Assembly: GCA_020854115.1 (NCBI GenBank)
Contig: JADZGC010000019.1
Location: 1-34,226, forward strand
DNA length: 34,226 bases
Direction of reading: 5' to 3'
Source: a bacterium
GTDB taxonomy: Bacteria > Patescibacteriota > Saccharimonadia > CAILAD01 > GCA-016700035
This document shows, piece by piece, positions 14,761-34,226 of this stretch; positions within the stretch are counted from its first letter, which is position 1, and each line of letters begins with the position of its first letter. A program made the position numbers and the translations under genes. Below the pieces are notes generated by a model that was given only the letters and a program-made list of their open reading frames with translations, searched no databases and had not been told where the DNA came from.

Positions 14761-16257
14761 TTAGAATTTCCACCAAGGCGTGGGCGTTGGCGTTGTTTTT
14801 TTCGTCGTTACAGTTAAGGGCGTGATGTACCCACTATCTGACACAAGCCGATTAAGATCTTTTGCTTTGTAGCTGAATTTATATGTTACACCAGGCTGGA
14901 GTCCAGAAATTGTGTAACTAGTACCCTTGGGTAGTCCTGCATCGCCTGTAGTTGTATTCAAATATGTCCAGCTACGATCAGGAGATTTTGATGGATTGCT
15001 GGCAGTTGTCCAATTCAAGCTATACCTTATATCAGAACCTGTTTTACCCCCCGTTGCTACCGGCCAATTCAATGTAACGCTCGTCGTAGAGGCTGTATAG
15101 CTAGTAAAGTTACCCACGGAAAGTGATGTTGGGCTCACGGTTGGCGCAGAAGTGCTTGTTGGCGCAGAAGTGCTTGTTGGCGCAGAAGTGCTTGTTGGCG
15201 CAGAAGTGCTTGTTGGCGCAGAAGTGCTTGTTGGCGCTACGGTAGGCAAATTGGTCGATCCGTCAGCCGGGACCCAGACTCTAATCTGATCGATTAAAAA
15301 GTTGATAGGCTTCCATGGTTTTGCGTTATCCGGAGCCTCGTGCCAATCATCCTCTGGTTCGGTAATCTCAGTCTCCATTCTAAGCTCCCATATATCCGTC
15401 ATAATCGCCCTAAAATGTGATTCTGAAATACCGCTAAAGTCTGACGCTGTATCTAACACCCCACCATCTCCCCCATTGGTACGTCGAACCTCCTGACCAT
15501 CGAAGATATACCTTATACCTGCAGGACTCCATTCAACGACATACATGTGGTTCTTATTATCAAGCCCAAGATCTTTCCGTGTATTCAGAAAATGTTGAGA
15601 TTTAACTGCGTTAGAACCCATTATCGAGGTACCAGTATACTCCCACGGCTTATCACCATACCATTCTAAAATGTCAATCTCACCATAGTTAGCCTGTCCC
15701 CAACTCGCTTGCTTATTTCGCAACCAGAGTGCAGACCAAACGCCTAGCTGCGTTGAAGGCACCTGTGCAGATATCTCAATCCTGCCAGCTTTCCAGGTAT
15801 TTTTAGAAACCACTTTTCCAGATGTATACACTGTTTGCTTGCCGGCTGGACAAACTGCGCCGTCCCACTGTGCATTTGAAGTTATCGGATCTTCGCCTTG
15901 AGTAAGGCAGTGACGAGCTGATCGCAAGTCTAGTTTGCCATCATGAACTGAAACGTTGAATGCCTTGTATATTCCTTGGTGATGATCATCGTGGCTCGTA
16001 CCACTTTTCGTAGTAATTGACCAGGCATTAGTATTTAAAGCTGTGCCGTTAAAATCTTCTTGGTATGCTAAGCTCCACCCATTCGATACGACAGCGGCTC
16101 GTGAGTAAATGACATATACTATCCCAATGATAGCTAAAGCAGCACCGACGAACACATATGATAATGGATTAAATCTCTGGAATGGGGTTATTTTTGATAA
16201 CTTAACTATTTTTTTACGTGCCGTACTTGTTGTATTCTTTCTTTTTTTGCTTACCAT
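14761..16257 (-). CDS. Membrane-anchored GH16 family beta-glucanase with Fn3 domain
   Basis: A 498-aa protein. A Lys-rich tail and a membrane helix (about 33-52) end in YSRAA. A GH16 catalytic domain spans about 57-330: YQEDFNGTALNTNAW at the start, the active site GEIDILEWYG with nucleophile E193, D195 and acid/base E198, and PINFLIDQIRVW at the end. A linker with five TSTSAP repeats follows, then a fibronectin type III domain (about 390-485) and a TPTPTP tail. GH16 enzymes cut beta-1,3(4)-glucans and related polysaccharides; which one is open. The Shine-Dalgarno AGAGGA lies five bases before the ATG. It is probably displayed on the cell surface and able to act on polysaccharide of the host or biofilm. 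Confidence 0.85.
   Translation of the reverse strand: MVSKKRKNTTSTARKKIVKLSKITPFQRFNPLSYVFVGAALAIIGIVYVIYSRAAVVSNGWSLAYQEDFNGTALNTNAWSITTKSGTSHDDHHQGIYKAFNVSVHDGKLDLRSARHCLTQGEDPITSNAQWDGAVCPAGKQTVYTSGKVVSKNTWKAGRIEISAQVPSTQLGVWSALWLRNKQASWGQANYGEIDILEWYGDKPWEYTGTSIMGSNAVKSQHFLNTRKDLGLDNKNHMYVVEWSPAGIRYIFDGQEVRRTNGGDGGVLDTASDFSGISESHFRAIMTDIWELRMETEITEPEDDWHEAPDNAKPWKPINFLIDQIRVWVPADGSTNLPTVAPTSTSAPTSTSAPTSTSAPTSTSAPTSTSAPTVSPTSLSVGNFTSYTASTTSVTLNWPVATGGKTGSDIRYSLNWTTASNPSKSPDRSWTYLNTTTGDAGLPKGTSYTISGLQPGVTYKFSYKAKDLNRLVSDSGYITPLTVTTKKTTPTPTPWWKF
15143..15232 (-). repeat. Five perfect 18-bp tandem repeats in the GH16 linker
   Basis: The unit GGCGCAGAAGTGCTTGTT on the + strand occurs five times without a mismatch and encodes Thr/Ser/Ala/Pro linker residues. 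Perfect identity at third positions indicates recent expansion by slippage. The copy number may differ between strains, changing linker length without shifting the frame. Confidence 0.9.
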
Positions 16258-33656: not shown

Positions 33657-34226
33657 TTAGTATATAAGGAGGTCAGGTCTTTCAGCCACTATTTTAGCCT
33701 TCTCGGCAGACGTCAGACTGCTGAGATTGAGGCCACCACCCACGCTCTGTGGGAGCTGTAAGCCCTCGGCAGACGTCAGACTGTAGAGATTGAGGTTGCC
33801 ACCCACGCTCTGTGGGAGCTGTAAGCCCTCGGCAGACGTCAGACTGCCGAGATAGAGGCCACCACCCACGCTCTGTGGGAGCTGTAAGCCCTCGGCAGAG
33901 GTCAGACTGCCGAGATTGAGGCCACCACCCACACTCTGTGGGAGCTGTAAGTCCTCGGCAGAGGTCAGACTGTCGAGATTGAGGTCACCACCCACACTCT
34001 GTGGGAGCTGTAAGCCCTCGGCAGAGGTCAGACTGTGGAGATCGAGGTCACCACCCACACTCTGTGGGAGCTGTAAGCCCTCGGCAGACGTCAGACTGCC
34101 GAGATAGAGGCCACCACCCACGCTCTGTGGGAGCTGTAAGCCCTCGGCAGAGGTCAGACTGTCGAGATCGAGGTGACCATGGTGAAATACAATAGGGTTT
34201 TCTGGCGTTCCAGACAGTGCCTCTTC
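33657..34226 (-). CDS. Leucine-rich solenoid repeat protein, 3' part (5' end outside the window)
   Basis: The frame is open from the right window edge to a TAA at 33657, giving at least 189 residues; the true start lies outside. After a short lead-in (GTPENPIVFHHG) come eight copies of a 21-residue unit of the pattern LTSAEGLQLPQSVGG-x-L-x-L-x-S, then a short tail (KAKIVAERPDLLIY). Regular Leu spacing with a Gly-Gly turn predicts a beta-solenoid of leucine-rich-repeat type. Almost all variation between units falls on the three x positions: Gly/Asp/Asn/His at the first, Tyr/Asp/Asn at the second, and Gly/His/Asp/Tyr/Ser at the third, which would line one face. That suits a binding surface. Whether it is exported cannot be seen without the N-terminus. 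Confidence 0.8.
   Translation of the reverse strand, partial: EEALSGTPENPIVFHHGHLDLDSLTSAEGLQLPQSVGGGLYLGSLTSAEGLQLPQSVGGDLDLHSLTSAEGLQLPQSVGGDLNLDSLTSAEDLQLPQSVGGGLNLGSLTSAEGLQLPQSVGGGLYLGSLTSAEGLQLPQSVGGNLNLYSLTSAEGLQLPQSVGGGLNLSSLTSAEKAKIVAERPDLLIY
33702..34178 (-). repeat. 63-bp tandem repeats encoding the solenoid
   Basis: The block GGGAGCTGTAAG recurs seven times at exact 63-bp steps from 33751 to 34129, and eight units can be aligned including the partial ends. Units are nearly identical at the DNA level apart from three codons: first x CAC, GGC, GAC, AAC; second x GAT, TAT, AAT; third x GAC, GGC, CAC, TAC, AGC. The third base of each variable codon never changes. The few other differences are mostly silent (GTG AGC or AGT context, ACG or ACC). 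Confidence 0.9.

Follow-up and report, generated by a model that had tools for sequence, protein, structure and literature searches.

Diversified codons on the putative binding face of a predicted leucine-rich repeat array in a Saccharibacteria-class genome

The repeat array that ends contig C19, which was analyzed over its whole 34,226 bp (hereafter "the window"), very likely encodes the C-terminal leucine-rich repeat (LRR) region of a diversifying recognition protein, with a candidate ligand-binding outward face. This reading draws on the array and its codon pattern, a predicted LRR fold, recurrence of the pattern in other arrays, an excess of replacement changes, a second gene copy and the architecture of relatives. 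The source genome (790 kb in 21 contigs, completeness estimate 99.5%) belongs to the Saccharibacteria class of the Patescibacteria.

Results

The array occupies the 3′ part of a protein-coding gene on the minus strand (33657..34226; 189 codons plus the stop TAA in the ORF listing) that is open at the contig end. Its first part is a linker (EEALSGTPENPIVFHHG; 34176..34226, minus strand), which in full-length relatives joins an N-terminal domain to the LRR and is matched by EEALRGNIIYHYG, EEALSGNIKYHYG and KSEALIGNILYHHG ahead of the LRR in L066, L070 and L067, respectively. Seven complete 21-residue LRR units follow (33735..34175, minus strand; assigned from TRF, the codon table, the AF2 model and fold matches), then a partial eighth unit read from the codon table (GLNLSSLTSAE; 33702..33734, minus strand) and a C-terminal cap (KAKIVAERPDLLIY; 33660..33701, minus strand) that forms a helix at residues 173 to 182 of the AF2 model and has the counterparts LTSADKQKLREQQPDLANKII and LTSADRQKLRELRPDLADKIR in relatives. 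Linker and cap are both conserved among relatives. The unit consensus is xLxLxSLTSAEGLQLPQSVGG, with codons 1, 3 and 5 variable in each unit, and units start on the minus strand at 34175, 34112, 34049, 33986, 33923, 33860, 33797 and 33734. The initial annotation had described eight 63-bp units; the repeat array is real, but its eighth unit is incomplete, comprising codons 1 to 11 only before the cap, and TRF counted 7.5 copies of 63 bp (33702-34173; 92% match). Elsewhere in the window, an 18-bp tandem repeat (15140-15237; 5.4 perfect copies) inside an ORF at 14761-16257 (minus strand) encodes an STSAPT-type linker.

Across units, codon 1 was GGC (four times), GAC (twice), CAC or AAC; codon 3 was AAT (four times), GAT (twice) or TAT (twice); and codon 5 was GGC (three times), GAC (twice), CAC, TAC or AGC, an exact match to the sets first reported. 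By minimum counts, nine of at least 10 replacement changes fell within these three of the 21 codons, a concentration well above what chance would give. The description of the other 18 codons as nearly fixed held to that extent, but not fully: codons 8 (ACC/ACG, 4:4), 18 (AGC/AGT, 4:3) and 21 (GGT/GGC, 6:1) vary synonymously, and codon 12 carries the single replacement outside codons 1, 3 and 5 (GGC to GAC, G to D). The third base of the variable codons is indeed invariant, as had been noted, but this counts for little and is not significant, because the array's own synonymous rate predicts only ∼0.3 synonymous changes at the three codons.

A second copy of the gene was found in the same genome. 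The opening 127 bp of contig C2 are identical to the end of the window on the reverse strand (34100..34226, an assembly-graph branch), after which C2 continues with a last partial unit and a cap (DSLTPAEKAKIVAERPDLYVY). This 127-bp overlap truncates the window gene at its 5′ end, the assembly having broken at the point from which the two copies are identical; beyond the segment that they share ahead of the array, the copies have different numbers of units. At least two copies are therefore present in the genome, and behind one identical segment they carry very different arrays (8 units versus ∼1.5 to 2). The copy on C2 (L003, 1-192; ∼1.5 units) lies beside a MurA-like ORF. No contig carrying the upstream part of the window gene was found in the bin. 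Paralogs elsewhere have similarly unequal arrays: the N-terminal parts of L070 and L071 are 95% identical at the protein level and their arrays are rearranged, and the arrays of L066 and L067 also differ.

Structure modeling of the window protein, a check proposed with the initial annotation, returned an LRR solenoid with the variable codons on the strand (AF2 without alignment: pLDDT 87.8, pTM 0.84), the strands coinciding with the variable x-L-x-L stretch. Foldseek against the PDB gave weak E-values (best 0.045), with LRR proteins in most of the top rows; upon realignment, the closest solved structures in the high-ranking rows were LRR domains of IpaH1.4, YopM, IpaH3 and SspH1, with Z ∼12 (rmsd 3.4 to 3.6 over ∼179 residues), and the rank 1 match, flagellar-motor chain 8z5u (Z 13.1), was within tie range of these domains. 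Sequence libraries (Pfam and NCBIfam) gave no LRR family match above the cut-off, and their matches on the repeat to Glutaredoxin2_C, threonine synthase and others were below the cut-off, local and rejected. In L004, Glutaredoxin2_C scored 33.2 against a cut-off of 32.8, but no stretch passed alone (the best spans 21 residues) and the match was deemed chance. The array is thus predicted to fold as an LRR of tandem 21-residue units, with L-x-L strands in a parallel-strand solenoid. Judging from DSSP, the L-x-L alternation and the fold matches, codons 1, 3 and 5 would encode the x residues of x-L-x-L-x on an outward concave face.

Pattern scans of genome-contig and viral-contig collections with the window protein returned no relative, whereas a separate genome search succeeded, placing relatives in 12 of 380 genomes sampled across the phylum (the source genome included) and in 11 of 393 genomes of the class. 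Full-length relatives carry an N-terminal domain with the motifs GTGWCTAG, GDFYVYYT, PRxAIRM and EVRGI; the GTGWCTAG domain was present in 33 of the 393 class genomes, and the family is often multi-copy within a genome. A search for this domain in the source genome itself did not find it; by homology, the missing N terminus of the window gene is probably this unnamed domain of ∼400 residues. The corresponding parts of L028, L031, L070, L071 and L079 measure ∼400 residues, and W-C-T-A-G is invariant in eight aligned members. Above-threshold matches to the domain were absent from Pfam, NCBIfam and PHROGs, and PADLOC gave one weak match (PDC-M49B, E = 6.5 × 10−4). An acetyltransferase identity was considered and dropped (pLDDT 67.7; best Z 5.2, over residues 226 to 330), being too weak to name.

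The C-terminal partner of this domain is either an LRR or helical repeats. The latter (NLDKF..., HGANI...) stand in place of LRRs in L053, L054 and L069, and their identity as ankyrin repeats was unconfirmed by Pfam. In L087 (1339-2628), the central N-terminal domain has apparently been deleted, with the start, the linker and at least 14 LRR units remaining. L070 and L071 (CANRFG01) come from a MAG labeled as uncultured Bacilli; if that label is not an error, members of the family occur outside Patescibacteria as well. IMG/VR viral contigs also encode the GTGWCTA core motif, among them L109 (a 3,330-amino-acid ORF open at the locus start) and L110 (5590-7770). L109 also has the Pfam domain LPD38, which has been described as confined to phage-type polyvalent proteins (PMC5512222). 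The literature searched yielded no description of this N-terminal domain joined to interchangeable repeat tails.

Columns 1, 3 and 5 of the unit were also the most variable in 21 other arrays, nearly all of them from Patescibacteria, with column 6 next. Mean entropy peaked at these three columns (1.77, 1.65 and 1.68 bits, respectively; 16 other arrays), and pN was higher there than elsewhere in all 19 arrays with at least four units. The ratio of replacement to synonymous changes at columns 1, 3 and 5 reached 6.9 for the window array (P = 0.0019) and 1.53 when 22 arrays were pooled (P = 2.6 × 10−6), compared with 0.39 at the remaining columns except column 6; these values come from minimum-change counts among units within arrays, made without a tree, which leaves the ratios open to distortion by saturation and by exchange of units, and the P values serve as guides because units are not independent. 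Synonymous changes at the three columns were not rarer than expected in the pooled set (41 observed versus 30.6 expected), and the test was often nonsignificant in single arrays. Together with the LRR model, the ratios support one of the two explanations offered originally, in which diversifying selection acts on a single face of a binding solenoid.

Discussion

We propose that each 21-residue unit would form one short parallel strand, x-L-x-L-x, in which the L-x-L pattern suggests that the two leucines face the core, while the x residues (codons 1, 3 and 5) would point outward on the concave sheet and contact a ligand. Tandem duplication and recombination would multiply or remove whole units and so keep the scaffold codons uniform, and selection for altered binding would favor outward replacements, mostly to D, N, S, Y, G and R. 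This mechanism presupposes a changing ligand that is bound by the outward face, and a protein that acts in the cytosol or is exported by means other than a classical signal. Recognition of a protein ligand that changes would be the likeliest role, and we lean toward a host-cell or phage protein as the candidate.

The AAY-like look of the variable codons is a product of the genetic code and of recent unit duplication. Codons for N, D, H, Y and AGY-Ser all end in C or T. An outward strand position accepting mainly D, N, S, Y and G would mostly use NNY codons, and units copied from one ancestor would keep the same C or T at the third base. Residues at columns 1, 3 and 5 of the relatives and the seven window units were D (117), N (106), S (88), Y (69), G (58), R (30), E (13), H (10) and a few others. 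With the window excluded, 60 of 501 codons at these columns in relatives did not end in C or T, and V, A, P, T, L, I, F or C made up 11 of 441 NNY codons, yet these residues fill half of the NNY boxes. AAY-looking codons in a repeat array are, on their own, no evidence of a retroelement.

The other original explanation, that a diversity-generating retroelement (DGR) or another adenine-biased mutator rewrites AAC/AAT/AAC codons from a template repeat, is highly improbable; it is largely refuted, with no reverse transcriptase (RT) or template found to support it. Substitutions at A's alone would suffice to turn AAY into each of the 24 variable codons in the window, and DGRs do occur in Patescibacteria (PMC8144416). 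Measured against the AAC/AAT/AAC template, 26 of 48 A's were changed in the three codons and 0 of 59 elsewhere (Fisher P = 5 × 10−12), a comparison that relies on a hypothetical template and on three codons selected for their variability; the observation that other A's in the unit are unaltered was correct, and it tells against a mutator, as do the codons without a C/T ending and the near absence of hydrophobic NNY codons in relatives. The RT and template repeat that the initial annotation had suggested looking for were both sought in the source genome: the profile RVT_1 (PF00078) had no match in this 99.5% complete assembly, from whose bin the upstream contig is missing, although the positive controls (E. 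coli and two others) matched, and a genome-wide search found the repeat DNA only in the C19 array and its sister on C2. An RT was present in two of 15 relatives with such arrays (two of the 16 array-bearing genomes), always on a contig other than that of the array. DGR targets, moreover, are reported to have near-universally C-type-lectin folds (PMC8144416), as opposed to the LRR predicted here. The retroelement reading was therefore rejected on the RT search, the template search, the adenine test and the codon spectrum of relatives.

Weighing drift against selection turns on the replacement excess. Outward positions might tolerate any polar residue, so that drift and unit duplication would suffice without positive selection; the residues seen there (D, N, S, Y, G and R) fit tolerant exposed strand positions, and several arrays gave a nonsignificant ratio near 1 at columns 1, 3 and 5. 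Drift alone, however, would not raise replacement above the synonymous rate, as is seen in the window and in the pooled arrays, and we regard this account as unlikely. A question of location separates our preferred reading from a surface adhesin, in which the LRR would bind the episymbiont's bacterial host from outside, as has been proposed for the LRR proteins of oral TM7 without pili (PMC7739484). The variable predicted ligand-binding face would suit such a function, and LRR proteins are reported to be enriched in oral TM7 clade T1, at 12 to 24 per genome (PMC7739484), their membership in this family being only putative. A simple hydropathy scan, on the other hand, found no signal peptide or membrane span in seven full-length relatives; a cell-surface adhesin is for this reason not indicated, and we consider it improbable.

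The means by which episymbiotic Patescibacteria recognize and attach to their hosts have been described as largely unknown (PMC12206443). A multi-copy family with a conserved head, and with LRR tails whose diversification is concentrated on the predicted binding face, offers a concrete recognition candidate in these organisms. More tentatively, the multi-copy Patescibacteria family, with its conserved unnamed head (which shares its core motif with a phage polyvalent protein) and exchangeable, fast-diversifying LRR or helical modules, might constitute a recognition repertoire against hosts or phages, a wider interpretation that is possible but doubtful.

Several known systems resemble the array in part. 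To DGR variable regions the likeness is superficial and lies in the AAY-like codon set; the window array lacks an RT, a template and adenine specificity, and its fold differs. The LRR domains of IpaH, YopM and SspH1 share the predicted LRR fold (∼20 to 21 residues per unit, Z ∼12 over ∼179 residues), but identity to the window array is only 14 to 18%, the unit consensus of the array (LTSAEGLxLPxxVGGxLxLxx) is unlike theirs, the N-terminal domain of relatives is unrelated and a secretion route for the family is only putative. Pfam detected no NEL ubiquitin-ligase domain in relatives sharing the linker and cap, the window gene itself being truncated. The array also resembles LRR proteins of uncultured Caudovirales, of which A0A6J5SXX7 is 46% identical to the window protein and has a similar fold, with related repeats also in EBPR podovirus 1 and Vibrio phages; these phage proteins differ in that a search of the phage collection did not recover the N-terminal domain of relatives. 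LRRs that diversify on an exposed face are already a known kind, and the three-codon pattern is what an LRR binding surface ordinarily shows. In lamprey variable lymphocyte receptors (VLRs), encoded by multi-copy genes, variation is concentrated at the exposed x residues of the xxLxLxx strand face. One VLR structure aligns to the window model at Z 11. Unlike in lamprey VLRs and plant resistance-gene LRRs, no gene-assembly mechanism was seen here and an immune role for the family is only hypothetical, but the likeness to the plant proteins extends to both multi-copy genes and variation at the exposed x of xxLxLxx, where Ka/Ks exceeds 1 only at the x residues (PMC3113787).
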